Part shown: positions 6,231 to 32,868 of the stretch, in pieces
Layout: each line of letters opens with the position of its first letter
Position numbering within the stretch: position 1 is the first letter of the stretch
Source: an uncultured Ignavibacteriales bacterium
GTDB taxonomy: Bacteria; Bacteroidota; Ignavibacteria; Ch128b
Direction of reading: 5' to 3'
DNA length: 32,868 nucleotides
Assembly: GCA_937138605.1 (NCBI GenBank)
Contig: CAKZPH010000108.1
Coordinates: forward strand, 1 to 32,868
Notes under the pieces: model-generated
What the model saw: the letters and a program-made list of their open reading frames with translations, nothing else
What the model was told of the DNA's origin: nothing
Database searches by the model: none
Position numbers and translations under genes: made by a program

Positions 6231-8609
6231 TTAATTTTCAATTAGAATTTTCTTGTCACTTTCACTTGAGTCAAATAAAATAGATATCATTTTATCGAAA
6301 TCATATCGTTCGATGGCTAAATTTCTAGAATTAATCTTGATGTTTAAATAACCATCGAAATTATTCTCTATCATATCTAAAACTTTACTAATGGTTTCTG
6401 TCCATACTTTTTTATTCCATGCTGATACAACAAATCCAGTTTTTCCATTTATAACTATTTCTTTCGGTCCACCTACATCTGAAACAATGGCGGGTAAACC
6501 ACACATTTGTGCTTCGAGCACTGCGAGTCCAAACGTATCAGTTACACTCGGAAAAAGGAACAAATCCGATGCAGAATAAATCAGAGGTAGTTCTTCTCTT
6601 GAAACTTTACCAAGGAAGAAGATCTTCTTGTTAGAGTTATTCATTACCAGCTCATCTTTATAAGGACCATCTCCAACAATTATTAGATTTAAGTCATCAT
6701 AGGTTTTCTGAGTTTCTTTAAAGCAGTCAATTAAAAAGTCCATTCCTTTGTCTTTCGATACTCTACCAACATACAGCAGATTTACTCCATTAATTCCATA
6801 CTTTTCTCCAAATTGTTTTTTGGCAAACTCAACAGGTGAAAAAAGATTTTTATCTGTTCCGCGGTAAAAAGATCTTAATTTTTCCGATGGATACTCTCGG
6901 TCTTTTAATATAGATATATACTGTTCCGTTGGTACAAGAATTTCATCGGTCTGGGAATAAAACCATTTAACATAACTTTCAAGAGTTTTAGCAAGATTTT
7001 CGTTTTCCGATAGAGCTAAAGACTGAGCGTAAAAATCTGTATGATAAATAGATATCGATTTCACATTTAATAGTTTAGAAACTAATAACCCTAAAAGTCC
7101 AATTGGACCGGGTGTTGAAATAATAATTTCCTTAACTTCTCCAACTTCATCAAGAATTTTTAATGATTTTAGAATCGATGGTATGGAAATTATTTGCCTT
7201 TCATAATAAGGAAGTGAAATGCGATGAATAACCGGTAATTGCAAAAGTCGCGGAGGTGCATTTTTCAGTCTGTCATTCTCGCCGGTAACAAAAATAACAT
7301 CATAATTTCCATTCAGTTTAGAAACCATTTCATTAAGAGATGCAGAAACTCCATTTAAGTCACTAAACGTATCAGTGAACCAAAGAGTTACTCCTTTTTG
7401 ATAGTTGACTTTAAAGAGAGTTTTAAAAAGACTTTTTATTCTAAAGTTATCTTTTGTGATGTGTTTAGTTGATATTAAAAATGGAAGGGTTAATAAACTC
7501 ACAGGAACTATACTGGTAATGTTTTGGAGAAGTTTATTGAATTTTCCCTCTTGAAAACCTGATTCAACCGAATGAATAATTGTTTTAATTTTCATGTCGG
7601 TAAAGTCGCTGATAAAGTCGTAGACAGTATCAAATCTTTTTTCTAATGGAAAAGTTTCTGAAGTTTTTAAGAGCGTTTGCATAGCAAGGTTTAGATCTGA
7701 TTTTGGACTAATTTTAATCAACGATTTTAACAAAAGCTTTTCTAAGAATTTTAATTCATGTTGTTCAAAGATTATATCGTGAATTTTCTTTTTCACCAGG
7801 TTTGGTATCGAAAATGTAATTTTTGAATTTTTCCAGTGGTCATAAAGAACTTTATAGGCAGAAAATATGAGTTTTTGAAAATTGCCATTTTTACCAAAAG
7901 CATGAGTAGATTTATTTTTGATTGCTTCTAAAAATTCATCAACTGTTTCTACTTTTGCTTGCGTAAATGTAGAACCTATAAAAATTCCGGCGTGATCATC
8001 TGAACCTCCTGTGTATCCTTTAATCCAGGGTGTATCGCTGAAAGGTGTGATGCCATGTTTTGAATAGAGATTTTCAATGTGAACATCTTTGAGGTTATTC
8101 AAAATTAGTTTAATCCCAGAATTACTTATTTTATTCATTCCTCCATTTATGATTTCGAAGGTGTCGAAAAGTAAAATGAGTTTTTCGATATGATGAACAT
8201 CTAATTTTTCATCTTCAGCAAAATTTGCGTGGGCTACCGAATAGGCAAGATTTTCTTCTTTAATGAAATCGCGTAAATCGTAAATGTTGTATCGCAACTT
8301 CTCAATCATTCTGAACTGGACTTCATCTAATCCATAAACCAATAAATGAATAGGACAATTATCTTCCGGAAAGAATGTTGTAGCTTCGACACCAACTATC
8401 ACCTCCTCTGGAAATTTTTCTTTAAGCAGAAGAGCGCCATCAATTTTATTGTGATCGGTGATTGCTACAAAGTCCATTCCGTTTTTCTTTGCTAAATGGT
8501 ATAATGATTCGGGTGAAGTGTAACACTCTTTTGTTTTCAATAACTTGAAAATGAAATCAGATGGGATTTCTGAATAAATTGAATGAACGTGTAAGTCTAC
8601 TTTTTTCAT
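6231..8609 (-). CDS. Fusion protein: N-terminal PHP phosphoesterase-like domain plus C-terminal GT4-family glycosyltransferase
   Basis: PHP motifs DLHVHS, AITDHNKIDG, VAHANF, GGSDDHAG; GT4 motifs LLYVGRVSKDKGMDFLIDCF, LIIVGDGPYKDEL, FLFPSVTDTFGLAVLEAQMCGLPAIVSDVGG. Confidence 0.85.
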   Translation of the reverse strand: MKKVDLHVHSIYSEIPSDFIFKLLKTKECYTSPESLYHLAKKNGMDFVAITDHNKIDGALLLKEKFPEEVIVGVEATTFFPEDNCPIHLLVYGLDEVQFRMIEKLRYNIYDLRDFIKEENLAYSVAHANFAEDEKLDVHHIEKLILLFDTFEIINGGMNKISNSGIKLILNNLKDVHIENLYSKHGITPFSDTPWIKGYTGGSDDHAGIFIGSTFTQAKVETVDEFLEAIKNKSTHAFGKNGNFQKLIFSAYKVLYDHWKNSKITFSIPNLVKKKIHDIIFEQHELKFLEKLLLKSLIKISPKSDLNLAMQTLLKTSETFPLEKRFDTVYDFISDFTDMKIKTIIHSVESGFQEGKFNKLLQNITSIVPVSLLTLPFLISTKHITKDNFRIKSLFKTLFKVNYQKGVTLWFTDTFSDLNGVSASLNEMVSKLNGNYDVIFVTGENDRLKNAPPRLLQLPVIHRISLPYYERQIISIPSILKSLKILDEVGEVKEIIISTPGPIGLLGLLVSKLLNVKSISIYHTDFYAQSLALSENENLAKTLESYVKWFYSQTDEILVPTEQYISILKDREYPSEKLRSFYRGTDKNLFSPVEFAKKQFGEKYGINGVNLLYVGRVSKDKGMDFLIDCFKETQKTYDDLNLIIVGDGPYKDELVMNNSNKKIFFLGKVSREELPLIYSASDLFLFPSVTDTFGLAVLEAQMCGLPAIVSDVGGPKEIVINGKTGFVVSAWNKKVWTETISKVLDMIENNFDGYLNIKINSRNLAIERYDFDKMISILFDSSESDKKILIEN

Positions 8610-26475: not shown

Positions 26476-26609
26476 TATCAAAGATTAAGGAGATGACTAT
26501 ATAGATTTCTTTACCTCTTAAAAATTAATTGGTGATAAGTAAAATAAGTAAAGGAATCTATATAGGTTTACCGAGTGTTTATTTATACGTAAACAGTCGG
26601 TTTTTTGTT

Positions 26610-29600
26610 ATGAGTACTAGAATAATAAAAATTCTATTAATTTTTCTAATTCCGATAAAATTGCATTCAACAAATGATATTCGAGTGTTAATATCTACTC
26701 AAAGTGGAATTACATTTGAATTCTCACCAATTTATCTTTCAGAGGCTCATTTCAAAGATGCTAAAAATCGAATCCTTCCATTATTTGATGGTGCTTCCGA
26801 TCCAGATTTCAGAAAAATTGGTAAACCAGATTACAGATTCAAAATAATTCCAGTTGGATTGCCTTCACTAATTGGAAATTCATTTAAGATCGTCTCGTTG
26901 GAATTCGAAGATATAAATGGAGTGACCTTAAAACCAGTACCGAATCTTAGAAAAGAAAGTGATTTTATTGTTTATGAATATGAGGATATATTGGCAGACA
27001 CGGAAATTGAAAAACACGATTTGATTGAATGGGGTGAAATTGGATTGTTTCGTGAATTAGCTCTTGGTTATCTTAAAATTTACCCATATGAGCAAATTGG
27101 AAATGATGTAGTTAGAGTTTATAAAAAAATTATAGTAAATATTACCTATGGGCAATTTGATGAAAGAGTGATTACAAAACCAGTTGAAGATTTTCTAGTG
27201 CAGGGATTATTAAATGAAGATATTGCTAAATATTGGTACTACAATTACAATTCCAATTTACTTAATAAACCTTCCAAGGGATTATTAGCATCAGGTAATT
27301 GGTTTAAAATGAAGATTACTGAAGAGGGTATTTATAAATTAGATTTTAATTATTTAAGGTCAAAAGGTGTGGATTTATCAGGAATTGATCCCAGAACAAT
27401 TAGAATATTTGGGAATGGAGGCAGAATTTTAAGTAAAAAACCTGAAGATTCAAAACCGGAAGGACTAATTGAAAATTCTATTATAGTTGTTGGTGAGGAA
27501 GATGGTCGGTTTGACCAGAATGATTATATATTATTTTATGCACCTGCTACAAAGGGATGGGAGTATGACTCTTTATCAAATTCATATAGACATTATTTTC
27601 ATTATTATTCAGATGTAAATTATGTTTGGTTAACTTATGGTGGAAGTGTCGGAAAGAGAATGTCACCAAAAATTAATTTGACAACATCGCCCACTGAAGT
27701 TGTAACAACTACGATTGGTTTTGTTTTTAATAAGGAATTTAAGAAGAACTTAGCCTCAACTGGTAGAAAATGGTTTGGTGATGAATTTAATGATAGAATA
27801 AAATCAAGAGTTTATACAAATCGTTTGCCTGGATTGATTCCAAATCAACAAATCACTTACAGGATTAGTGTAGCGGCAAGATCAAATCGATTTACTACAT
27901 TTTCAGTTGAAGAAAGTTCGAATTTAATTGGTACAATTGGTGTTTTAGCAGCCGATATTTCCAGTGGTTCTGGAATGTATGCAAGGCAAGGATTTGGAAT
28001 ATTTACTCATTCATCTAATTTAGCTGATAATCGGAGCATTCTGAAAATCACTTATAATCTTACAGATGCTACATCTCAAGGATACCTTGATTATTTTGAA
28101 ATAATATATCCACGTGAACTTTATGCAGATAACGATAGAATTTGGTTTTTTAGTCCACAAAAAACAGGAGTTTTTGAATATATCATCAGAAATTTTTCGA
28201 GTAGCGAAATAAATGTATTTGATGTTACTGATTTTTCTAATGTTAAGATGATTCACAATGCGGAAATTAGTGGAATGCAGATTAAGTTTAGAGCTAGTGA
28301 GCAAGCAAAAGTCCCCTCGAAATATTTTGCCGTTGGAAAAAATGGATACTTAGTTCCCTCTGAGATTGTTAAAGTTCCAAATCAAAGATTACGAGATGAG
28401 AGTTTAACTGAAGGTGCAGATTTAATTATTATTTCACCAGCTGAGTTTTTATCGGAGGCAAATCGTCTCAAAACTCACAAAGAAACACGGAAGATAGCTA
28501 AAACAATAGTGGTTAATGTTGAGGAAATATACAACGAATTTAGTGGTGGTTTACTTGATGTAACAGCTATTCGTGATTTCATTCGTTATGCTATGTTGAA
28601 ATGGTCAATTAAGCCAAAATATGTGCTTCTTTTCGGAGACGGGCATTATGATTACAGAAATGTAGAAGGTTATGGTAAAAATTTTATTCCACCATATGAA
28701 ACTGAAGAAAGTTTGTTTTTAATATATTCGTATCCAACTGACGATTACTATGGGCGCGTAATTGGAAATGATTTAATAATGGATGTATCAATTGGCCGAT
28801 TGAACATTCAATCCCTCAGCGAAGCCAAAAATGTTGTGAACAAAATTATCGATTACGAAACAAATCGAGATTTTGGTCCTTGGAGAAATATCATAACGTT
28901 AGTTGCAGACGATGGCAAAACGACTACTGGAGATGATGGAGATATACACACTCGACAATCGGAGTTTCTCGCAAAAAACAGAATACCTGCTGCGTTTGAA
29001 CAGAAAAAGATTTATCTAATTCAATATCCCACGGTTGAGACAGCGGGTGGTCGTAAAAAGCCAGATGTTAATAGTGAGATTATAAAGACAATAAATAATG
29101 GAACATTAATACTGAACTTCATTGGTCATGGTAATCCAGAAGTTTGGACTCATGAATTTGTATTTGAGAAGACTGTAACTATTCCACAATTAAAGAATTA
29201 CAATCGATTGTGCTTGATATCTGCCGCAACTTGTGATTTTGGTGATTATGATAAGCCATCTTCTCAAAGTTCTATGGAACTTCTTACTTTAAGTCCAAAT
29301 GGTGGAGCAATTGCAGGTTTTACTGCATCAAGGTTAGTTTGGTCTGATCAAAATGCTGCAATTAATAATTCCTTTTTTCATTTTCTTTTGAGTTATAAAA
29401 ACACAAACTCCCCTCAACCGACGATTGGTTTAGCTTATCTAAACACTAAAAAAATTCACTACTACGAGAATGATCAAAAGTATCAATTATTTGGCGACCC
29501 ATCTCTTTACTTGAATATACCAAAACTTTCTGGTGTAATAGATTCAATAAATTCTAAGTCAATAGTAACGCAAGTGGAATTGAAGTCGTTAAACAATACA

Positions 29601-30602
29601 ACAATTGTTGGTAGTGTAAGGGATTCTCTTGGTAATGTCATTTCGAATTTTAATGGTCAAGTTATAGTTACAGTTTACGATTCTAAACGATACCAAGAAA
29701 TTCCTGAATGGTATGGCTGGAGTGGACCTGCTAGAGGAATTGAGCTCTCTGGTGGAATTGTATACCGTGGAAGAGCAAGTGTAAAGAACGGGATTTTTAG
29801 AACTGAATTTGTAGTGCCCAAGGATTTATCGTATGAAGGGAATAATGGTAAAATTATAGCTTATTTCTTTAATGAATCAGTTGACGGTATGGGCTTTACA
29901 GAAAATATTAAATTAGTTTCTGCTGATTCAATTAATATAATCGATAATAAAGGTCCTGATATTACAATTTATTTTGACAATGAATACTCACCTTATACAA
30001 GTCTTGTTCAGAAAGATGCAACGTTGATTATTAAACTTGAAGATGAAACAGGAATAAACACAACTGGTCTTGGCATGGGCCATGATATCGAAGCTGTGAT
30101 TAACGATAATATTAGTAAGGCAATCAAATTAAATGAGTATTTTCAAGGTGAACTTGACCAAGGAAATAAAAAGGGTGAGGTAAGATATAGATTACTTGAT
30201 TTACCTTTAGGTAAAAATAAACTTAAATTAACAGCCTGGGACGTATTAAATAACAGCAATTCAGTTGAAACGTTATTTGAAGTTGTAGGTGAAGATAAGA
30301 TTTTAATAAAGTATATTTTTAACTATCCAAATCCCATGAAAAATGAAACTGAATTTACATTTCAGCATAGTTATGATATGCCAGTAAATGTGGAAATAAA
30401 AATTTATTCTGTTGCTGGAAGACTAATACATAAAATTGAAAGGCAAAACGTAGTTGAGAAATTTGTAAAGATTCCATGGGATGGAAAAGATCCAGACGGT
30501 GACTATCTTGGTAATGGTGTATATTTATACAAGATTATTTTAACTTCAGTCGATAATATAAAATCGAGCGAAGCAATAGGTAAATTAGCAATAGTAAGAT
30601 AA
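26610..30602 (+). CDS. porU: Type IX secretion system sortase PorU (C25 gingipain-like peptidase)
   Basis: C25 features (ADLIIISPAEFLSEANRLKTHKE; LLFGDGHYDYRN; YPTDDYYGR; catalytic His in FIGHGNPEVWTHE and Cys in ISAATCDFGDYD), C-terminal T9SS/FlgD-like sorting domain (NYPNPMKNETEFTFQ...GDYLGNGVYLYKI). The track start at 26529 is TTG; ATG at 26610 opens signal peptide MSTRIIKILLIFLIPIKLHS. Confidence 0.9.
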   Translation: MSTRIIKILLIFLIPIKLHSTNDIRVLISTQSGITFEFSPIYLSEAHFKDAKNRILPLFDGASDPDFRKIGKPDYRFKIIPVGLPSLIGNSFKIVSLEFEDINGVTLKPVPNLRKESDFIVYEYEDILADTEIEKHDLIEWGEIGLFRELALGYLKIYPYEQIGNDVVRVYKKIIVNITYGQFDERVITKPVEDFLVQGLLNEDIAKYWYYNYNSNLLNKPSKGLLASGNWFKMKITEEGIYKLDFNYLRSKGVDLSGIDPRTIRIFGNGGRILSKKPEDSKPEGLIENSIIVVGEEDGRFDQNDYILFYAPATKGWEYDSLSNSYRHYFHYYSDVNYVWLTYGGSVGKRMSPKINLTTSPTEVVTTTIGFVFNKEFKKNLASTGRKWFGDEFNDRIKSRVYTNRLPGLIPNQQITYRISVAARSNRFTTFSVEESSNLIGTIGVLAADISSGSGMYARQGFGIFTHSSNLADNRSILKITYNLTDATSQGYLDYFEIIYPRELYADNDRIWFFSPQKTGVFEYIIRNFSSSEINVFDVTDFSNVKMIHNAEISGMQIKFRASEQAKVPSKYFAVGKNGYLVPSEIVKVPNQRLRDESLTEGADLIIISPAEFLSEANRLKTHKETRKIAKTIVVNVEEIYNEFSGGLLDVTAIRDFIRYAMLKWSIKPKYVLLFGDGHYDYRNVEGYGKNFIPPYETEESLFLIYSYPTDDYYGRVIGNDLIMDVSIGRLNIQSLSEAKNVVNKIIDYETNRDFGPWRNIITLVADDGKTTTGDDGDIHTRQSEFLAKNRIPAAFEQKKIYLIQYPTVETAGGRKKPDVNSEIIKTINNGTLILNFIGHGNPEVWTHEFVFEKTVTIPQLKNYNRLCLISAATCDFGDYDKPSSQSSMELLTLSPNGGAIAGFTASRLVWSDQNAAINNSFFHFLLSYKNTNSPQPTIGLAYLNTKKIHYYENDQKYQLFGDPSLYLNIPKLSGVIDSINSKSIVTQVELKSLNNTTIVGSVRDSLGNVISNFNGQVIVTVYDSKRYQEIPEWYGWSGPARGIELSGGIVYRGRASVKNGIFRTEFVVPKDLSYEGNNGKIIAYFFNESVDGMGFTENIKLVSADSINIIDNKGPDITIYFDNEYSPYTSLVQKDATLIIKLEDETGINTTGLGMGHDIEAVINDNISKAIKLNEYFQGELDQGNKKGEVRYRLLDLPLGKNKLKLTAWDVLNNSNSVETLFEVVGEDKILIKYIFNYPNPMKNETEFTFQHSYDMPVNVEIKIYSVAGRLIHKIERQNVVEKFVKIPWDGKDPDGDYLGNGVYLYKIILTSVDNIKSSEAIGKLAIVR

Positions 30603-30619
30603 TTGGAGGAAATAATATC

Positions 30620-31777
30620 ATGAAAAAATTAATCGCATTAGTAGCGTTAAGCTTGATAATGGCAAGCTTTCTAAAACTTCATGCTCAGGGTGAGGCCGCA
30701 GTTCCATTCTTGCTTCTGGCGCCAGATTCTAGATCAGGTGGAATTGGTGAGTCAGGTGTAGCTTTAGCCGATAATGCTAATGGTGTTTTCTGGAATCCTG
30801 CTGGTCTTACTTTTCTGGATGGTTCTGAAGTCACATTTACGCATTCTAACTGGCTTCCACAATTTCAGTTAGATTTATTTTATGAATTTGCAGCTTATCG
30901 TCAGTATATTCCTTCACTTAATGGTAGTGTTTTTGCCAGCATTACTTATATGAACTTTGGGGAGTTCGTTAGAACTTCATCTCAAAGTCCAGACCCAATT
31001 GGAACATTCAAGTCATTTGATGCAGCTTTTACAATTGGATATGCAACAAAATTATCAAAGTCTCTAGGTGTCGGAGGTAATTTTAGGCTAATTCATAGTC
31101 GACTTGCTGATAGAGGAACTGAGTTAGAGCAAGGTAAAGGAGTTGCAACTACAGTAAGTTTTGATGTTGCTATGATGTTCAGACCAGATAAATTTTACTT
31201 ACCATTGATTGGAGATTTTAGCAGGAGATTTAGCTTTGGAATGAATTTAAGCAATCTCGGTCCAAAAATTTATTACATCGATCAAGCTCAAGCGGATCCT
31301 ATTCCAACAAATTTACGATTGGGAATTGGATTAAGGCTACTTGATATAGATTATAATTCAATTACGTATACAATTGATTTTAGTAAGCTCTTAGTGCATA
31401 AACGAAAAGGTGACAATAAACCAGACGGTTTACCAAAATCATTGATTTCTTCCTGGACAGACGAACCTTTCAATGAAGAATTAAGACAGATTGTTACTTC
31501 CATGGGACTTGAATACTGGTATGGTGTTCCAGGTGACTTTATGTTTGCTGCAAGAACAGGATTTTTCTATGAAGATCCAGCTTATGGGAATAGAAAGTTC
31601 GTTTCTCTGGGTGCAGGTGTAAGGTATGATATTTATGGTTTTGATTTTTCCTACATCACAACTTCTATGTTCAAGGGGCAAGAGAATCATCCATTAAACG
31701 AGACATTAAGGTTTACTCTCTCAATTGGTTGGGGTTCAAAGAAAAAATTGTCCAAGGGATTTCCAATGGGAAACTAA
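30620..31777 (+). CDS. porV: Type IX secretion outer-membrane protein PorV (LptO) family
   Basis: Signal peptide, FLLLAPDSRSGGIGESGVALADNANGVFWNPAGLTFL signature, barrel-like C-terminus, adjacent to porU; GGAGG upstream of ATG. Confidence 0.88.
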   Translation: MKKLIALVALSLIMASFLKLHAQGEAAVPFLLLAPDSRSGGIGESGVALADNANGVFWNPAGLTFLDGSEVTFTHSNWLPQFQLDLFYEFAAYRQYIPSLNGSVFASITYMNFGEFVRTSSQSPDPIGTFKSFDAAFTIGYATKLSKSLGVGGNFRLIHSRLADRGTELEQGKGVATTVSFDVAMMFRPDKFYLPLIGDFSRRFSFGMNLSNLGPKIYYIDQAQADPIPTNLRLGIGLRLLDIDYNSITYTIDFSKLLVHKRKGDNKPDGLPKSLISSWTDEPFNEELRQIVTSMGLEYWYGVPGDFMFAARTGFFYEDPAYGNRKFVSLGAGVRYDIYGFDFSYITTSMFKGQENHPLNETLRFTLSIGWGSKKKLSKGFPMGN

Positions 31778-31850: not shown

Positions 31851-32868
31851 ATGAGAAAAGCATTTTTAGTTTTAATTGTATTTATTAGCCATAATATATA
31901 TGGACAAATTGATTTGAATAAAATTCAAATCCATCTTCCCCATAAATTGAATAGACATTACGATCTGGCTAGCCAACGAAATCATTCAATTAATTTTGAT
32001 GATACTATAAAAGTACTGGCGGTTATGGTTGATTTTCAAGTTGATCAAGATGGAGCAACGTATGGTAATGGAAAGTTCGGTTCTCATTTTTCAAAGAATT
32101 ATGGTAAGAATATCATTGACCCACTTCCTCATGATAGAAACTACTTTAAAAATCATTTAGAGTTTTTGAAAAATTATTATGCAAAAGTTTCAGATGGAAA
32201 AATAAAAATTTCCTATGAAGTACTTGACAGAATTATTACGCTATCGAAAGTGATGAGTGAATATTCACCGCCACCCAGATCAAATGACCTGACAAAACTA
32301 AAATTTCTTTATGAGGAAACCTGGCTTAAAGTAGATTCATTGTATCATAATCACAATTTTACAGAATATGATGCATTTGTCATTTTTCATGCTGGAGTTG
32401 GTAGAGATATAGTTATTCCAGAAACATTTGGATATGAGAAAGATATCCCATCTGTTTTTCTTGGGCTCTCAACACTTAAAAGTTTTTTTGGAGAGAATTT
32501 TGTAGGTATTCCTGTTGGAAATCCACCAAAATTTGTTACCAATACATTAATTCTCCCAGAGACGGAAAGTAGAGAGATACAGACATTAACTGGGAAAACT
32601 TTGTTGGAGTTAAGCATAAATGGATTATTGTGTGCAAGTTTTGGGAGTTTTCTTGGTTTACCCGATCTTTTCGATTCAAAAACTGGAAAATCGGCAATTG
32701 GTCGATTTGGCTTAATGGATGGTCAAGCAATGTTTGCTTATGCAGGACTTTTTCCACCTGAACTTTCCGCATGGGAAAAACAATTCTTAGGTTTAGTCAA
32801 GCCAATTGAAATAAAAAGCGATACTGTTAATATTGAAGTACTTGCCCGTTTGGCATCTTTAGATAATC
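31851..32868 (+). CDS. M6-metalloprotease-like secreted protein with degenerate zinc motif, truncated by the window edge
   Basis: Manually translated ORF from ATG 31851 to the last base with no stop: MRKAFLVLIVFISHNIYGQ signal; KVLAVMVDFQVDQDG and CASFGSFLGLPDLFD...GRFGLMDGQAMFAYAGLFPPELSAWEKQFLGLVKP match the M6 pattern HEFGHxLGLPDLYD...GxWDLM...PxxLSAWxKxxLGW. Confidence 0.8.
   Translation, partial: MRKAFLVLIVFISHNIYGQIDLNKIQIHLPHKLNRHYDLASQRNHSINFDDTIKVLAVMVDFQVDQDGATYGNGKFGSHFSKNYGKNIIDPLPHDRNYFKNHLEFLKNYYAKVSDGKIKISYEVLDRIITLSKVMSEYSPPPRSNDLTKLKFLYEETWLKVDSLYHNHNFTEYDAFVIFHAGVGRDIVIPETFGYEKDIPSVFLGLSTLKSFFGENFVGIPVGNPPKFVTNTLILPETESREIQTLTGKTLLELSINGLLCASFGSFLGLPDLFDSKTGKSAIGRFGLMDGQAMFAYAGLFPPELSAWEKQFLGLVKPIEIKSDTVNIEVLARLASLDN

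Follow-up and report, generated by a model that had tools for sequence, protein, structure and literature searches.

A conserved, inactivated M6-like metalloprotease encoded beside porV as a candidate component of a type IX secretion system subtype

The last gene of the window, the whole stretch of DNA analysed here, encodes an inactive M6-like protein that we call M6i. The window is the complete contig C108 (32,868 bases), one of the 302 contigs that make up a draft genome. We consider M6i to be a catalytically dead M6-fold protein and, probably, a non-enzymatic surface machinery component of a type IX secretion system (T9SS) subtype, neither a product of gene decay nor an ordinary cargo protein. 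A machinery role appears likelier than cargo or decay because of the operon in which the gene lies, its co-occurrence with a second gene, and the tail of its sorting domain. The probable role comprises four steps taken jointly. The signal peptide suggests that M6i is exported by Sec; the C-terminal sorting domain, which is present, would then take it across the T9SS; PorV, the product of the adjacent upstream gene, would capture it; and the tail type that M6i has in common with PorU and PorZ suggests that it stays on the surface with its sorting domain uncleaved.

The M6i open reading frame begins with an ATG at position 31,851 on the forward strand and runs for 339 codons without a stop until it is interrupted by the contig end (31,851–32,868). 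Completion of the frame past 32,868, proposed in the original prediction, succeeded in part: the remainder (643 codons) is in the same draft genome, at positions 1–1932 of contig C210 (L072), and about 23 codons are absent between the two contigs by comparison with the closest full-length orthologue compared (L032). Both parts match the NCBIfam model NF052323 (T9SSA_dep_M6i, "T9SS-dependent M6-like inactivated metalloprotease") in a complementary manner, the window part with 468 bits over model positions 21–333 and the C210 part with 360 bits over positions 359–1043. The cut-off of this model, 600 bits, is meant for the full-length protein and is exceeded by three full-length orthologues (827–1141 bits); full-length relatives in the same taxonomic family (G001, G003, G004, and G005) pass it as well. 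As read from the translation, residues 1–18 (31,851–31,904, forward strand), MRKAFLVLIVFISHNIYG, probably form a Sec signal peptide, and the next residue is a Gln. A Gln just past the cleavage site agrees with the Bacteroidetes "Q-rule" (PMC5837995), and this residue, Q19, is nearly invariant across orthologues. At the other end of the protein, on C210, is the type A T9SS sorting domain expected of an NF052323 member (TIGR04183, 37.0 bits, cut-off 23; PF18962, 30.7 bits, cut-off 27), the C-terminal domain that the original prediction had proposed looking for.

The former zinc helix is found at residues 262–266, where the codons GCA AGT TTT GGG AGT (32,634–32,648, forward strand) encode ASFGS followed by FLGLPDLFD. 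M6i reads ASFGSFLGLPD at the place of HExxHxxGLPD in active M6 enzymes. The same genome encodes an active M6 paralogue on contig C277 (L203) with the motif HEFGHIFGLPD, and a T9SS sorting domain lies within an 801-codon frame on that contig. The segment THEFGHIFGLPDLYD of this paralogue corresponds to CASFGSFLGLPDLFD in the window, and its VFTHEFGHIFGLPDLYD aligns column for column with the window's LLCASFGSFLGLPDLFD. The predicted loss of both His residues and the Glu is confirmed by this alignment and by the translation. What remains around the motif is M6-like. The GLPD segment (32,655–32,666, forward strand), whose D aligns with the last residue of the HExxHxxGxxD motif of active M6 proteins, is conserved, as is GRFGLMDG (32,700–32,723, forward strand), identified by sequence comparison as an M6 segment past the zinc helix. 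The other scaffold elements that had been predicted, LAVMVDFQVD, GLPDLFD, and LSAWEKQFLGL, are all present.

Structure modeling confirms the M6 fold of the window protein. When the 339-residue fragment is modeled (mean pLDDT 77), the only confident PDB match is the InhA2 zymogen 4yu6 (probability 1.00, E = 3e-5). Model confidence is low right after the former zinc helix, probably because the end of the fragment is cut. Comparisons at the level of sequence are less telling: the Pfam M6 model gives 21.9 bits on the fragment, slightly below its 22-bit cut-off; a search of the PDB with the sequence of the window protein alone returned nothing relevant; and a profile of the M6 part reaches InhA weakly (E = 0.05). 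A profile of full-length M6i retrieves propellers, which also dominate a Foldseek search with a full-length model and leave that search uninformative on the M6 domain. The model of the full-length orthologue L096 (pLDDT 87) is composed of an M6-like domain, a beta domain, a propeller, and the sorting domain as a terminal beta-sandwich.

M6i is the third in a series of genes on the forward strand. PorU, the C25 sortase of the T9SS, is encoded at 26,529–30,602 (PF01364; NF033707, 996.8 bits, cut-off 420) and carries its own sorting domain ending in GKLAIVR. PorV, the outer-membrane shuttle, is encoded at 30,620–31,777 (PF19572, 108.5 bits; NF033709, 306.7 bits, above its cut-off; NF033710, 249.3 bits, cut-off 250), and its gene ends 73 bp upstream of the M6i start. 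The predicted linkage to porU and porV extends well beyond this genome. The porV gene is directly upstream of M6i, on the same strand and within 400 bp, in 133 of 135 loci with upstream room (median gap, 6 bp), and porU is within 2500 bp in 111/116 loci. The link between M6i and PorV is a genomic one. In two genomes of family f5 (L054 and L055), porU is tandemly duplicated upstream of porV and M6i. Relatives without M6i still carry PorU and run a T9SS, and therefore M6i is not universally needed. A PorU tree separates the sequences of M6i-bearing loci from those of loci without M6i, with weak support (73). Elsewhere in the window, a single open reading frame at 6231–8609 seems, by reading, to be a fusion of an N-terminal PHP-like part (MKKVDLHVHSIYSE...) with a glycosyltransferase-like part.

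Whether a protein with a sorting domain is cargo or machinery could be reflected in the fate of that domain. In Porphyromonas gingivalis, the sorting domains of PorU and PorZ are retained at the surface, whereas those of cargo are lost (PMC5562754, PMC8545088, PMC7712824). In the lineage considered here, the two classes can be told apart by their final residues: cargo domains typically have endings such as KKMILIK, PorU such as GKLAVIR, PorZ such as GKVAVIRK, and M6i such as IKIAVVK. The pattern K-phi-A/S-V/I-x-K/R is found in 128/139 M6i tails, 100/139 PorU tails, and 9/9 PorZ tails and in 0/57 cargo domains from five genomes, figures to be read in light of a pattern defined post hoc, on tails already inspected, and of cargo samples that were drawn, for the four other genomes, from the top of the score ranking. 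Among 39 further complete sorting domains in the window's genome, one has the pattern and belongs to a PorU2-like sortase. This protein, a second C25 sortase (L327:114-4538, contig C9), ends in KIAVVR, a tail of the PorU/PorZ/M6i type. We take the tail to be a real but modest pointer to the PorU/PorZ type.

The most serious alternative is that M6i is an ordinary cargo protein of the T9SS, such as an adhesin or another binding protein of the surface, whose dead protease fold and propeller bind extracellular ligands and whose gene merely lies beside porV. When whole sorting domains are scored, M6i sides with cargo: the cargo HMM scores best (median 47 bits), compared with 17 bits for PorU and 19 for PorZ. 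An attempt to group the M6i sorting domain with those of PorU and PorZ by whole-domain HMM failed accordingly, and this failure counts against the machinery reading. The propeller is also the least conserved of the large domains (0.31, whereas the M6 and sorting domains reach 0.64), as would be expected of a ligand-facing part. However, the M6-like domain and the sorting domain both show strong conservation from class to class, the M6i tail is unlike that of all 57 cargo domains, and at most one full-length orthologue is present per genome (99 relatives), fixed beside porV. On balance, we regard cargo as unlikely. Of the two roles named in the original prediction, accessory or cargo, the evidence leans toward the former, an accessory or machinery role, given the single copy, the position beside porV, and the PorU/PorZ-like tail; cargo is the less favored. 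Replacement of PorZ by M6i was considered separately and rejected. Because PorZ is encoded elsewhere in the same genomes, M6i is not a PorZ stand-in: an above-cut-off match is present in 87/99 relatives, the window's genome has a separate PorZ gene on C183 (368.5 bits, cut-off 260), and the PorZ model gives one match among three full-length M6i orthologues, of 20.8 bits and to the sorting domain only.

The second gene associated with M6i encodes a metalloprotease-propeller-barrel protein, which we call MAbar. In the window's genome, it is found at L072:1984-5082 (contig C210), and Pfam detects two domains, a TolB-like propeller and a Peptidase MA domain with the motifs HEFTH and WFAEGTAQY. An outer-membrane barrel is suggested by the C-terminal ending ...YFGMLFGFEF and by a weak match to BamA; no NCBIfam equivalog scores above its cut-off. 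MAbar keeps HExxH in 126 of 127 sequences, and the last sequence is gapped at that place. Its gene is downstream of M6i in 117/128 loci and non-adjacent in several lineages (f6, f13, f30, f34, and f45). A DUF5683 protein is usually encoded next after MAbar in the operon (L072:5079-5975 in the window's genome). M6i is present in 72 of 99 relatives and missing from 27; a close MAbar orthologue occurs in the same 72, and the 27 others have none or weak partial matches. In an even sample of 398 Bacteroidota genomes (M6i matches with E up to 1e-40, MAbar with E up to 1e-80), the two proteins have identical distributions, both in 154 genomes. This co-occurrence extends to genomes in which the two genes are separated by a long distance or lie on different contigs (G010, G020, G102, G158, G203, G206, and G342). 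Because genomes share ancestry, the 154 co-occurrences are not 154 independent events, and the split between presence and absence may reflect one or two ancestral events only.

Such a distribution, unlinked cases included, could also mean that M6i is a dedicated regulator of MAbar, acting as inhibitor, activator, or chaperone, with the T9SS merely its export route. The retained HExxH and WFAEGTAQY-type motifs of MAbar fit this idea. On the other hand, porV is the nearer and more constant neighbor of M6i, MAbar is not always adjacent, and a common distribution may descend from one ancestor. We find this alternative quite improbable. The preferred reading, M6i as a surface component of the secretion machinery, can accommodate MAbar in another way: the M6 cleft, free of zinc, might form together with the beta-propeller a binding scaffold that partners MAbar, a tentative extension suggested by the observed co-occurrence. 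The N-terminal protease of such barrels usually faces the periplasm. If that of MAbar does so, the outer membrane would separate it from a surface-located M6i, which counts against this reading. Still more doubtful, but worth stating, is the idea that M6i and MAbar make up an unrecognized module of two parts, belonging to a T9SS subtype of Ignavibacteria and of Bacteroidota outside that class, in which a PorV-held dead protease at the surface and a live metalloprotease in the outer membrane would jointly handle cargo or control its quality.

The non-catalytic state proposed for M6i is a conserved one. We considered 143 orthologous M6i loci, 142 of them informative at the motif. HExxH is absent in all 142, whereas GLPD retains both its P and its D in all 142, and no orthologue in this set has an intact HExxH elsewhere in the protein. 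The position of the first His is occupied by A (107), S (22), G (10), or N (3), that of the Glu by S (76), N (35), T (20), M (7), or another residue (4), and that of the second His by S (123), N (13), T (5), or G (1). A tree was built from 29 inactive proteins of several classes and 16 active M6 proteins of the window's class. The 29 inactive proteins form one side of a branch apart from the active ones (support 100/99); one row of this tree, a_L217, is a long branch. From the column counts and the one-sided grouping of the inactive proteins, we conclude that the loss of HExxH is old and was probably a single event. It is conceivable that M6i has remained an enzyme by means of another metal site or of catalytic residues drawn from other conserved positions, and the invariant polar residues H171, N247, D262, and D280 (L096 numbering) might be taken as candidates. 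This is very improbable, since the three ancestral positions vary (A/S/G/N, S/N/T/M, and S/N/T) and none of them supplies an invariant nucleophile or ligand. A decayed, strain-specific pseudogene, as the division of M6i between two contigs and the three open reading frames of the G082 orthologue (L086:8581-11591, with porU and porV kept; a decayed gene or sequencing errors) might suggest, can be rejected, since the split coincides with a contig end, frames of about 1000 codons are open in 40 further relatives and in most of 80 named-genome loci, and conservation across orthologues is high.

T9SS studies have mostly been carried out in Porphyromonas and Flavobacterium. Should the PorU-PorV unit of other branches of the phylum indeed include a dead protease as a fixed part, the surface half of the T9SS would differ among lineages, and a secretion system would have recruited a pseudoenzyme. 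Because M6i and MAbar have identical distributions, the uncharacterized metalloprotease is a directly testable partner.

M6i is not new in kind. The original prediction knew of no described T9SS component of this sort, but NF052323 already names a T9SS-dependent inactivated M6 metalloprotease with the same architecture and inactivated motif as M6i and no structural difference from it. The name gives no function, and we found no paper in the open-access literature that describes the family or its function. To our knowledge, the additions made here are the operon with porV and MAbar, the co-occurrence with MAbar, and the PorU/PorZ-like tail. With M6 peptidases such as Bacillus immune inhibitor A (PDB 4yu5 and 4yu6) and the active protein of C277, M6i has in common the fold, GLPD, and later GLM-type segments, but its HExxH zinc and catalytic residues are replaced, a beta-propeller and a sorting domain are added, and it falls in a separate clade. 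PorU2 (NF052324), a putative second sortase, is a C25 sortase, whereas M6i has an M6 fold, and the PorU2-like protein found here has the M6i type of tail. Set against the T9SS attachment complex, M6i has the sorting domain and matches PorU and PorZ in tail type, but not in whole-domain score. Within that complex, M6i resembles PorZ, which functions in A-LPS delivery and, like M6i, joins propeller and sorting domain to a similar tail; PorZ differs in that its propellers number two and an M6 domain is missing (PMC8545088).
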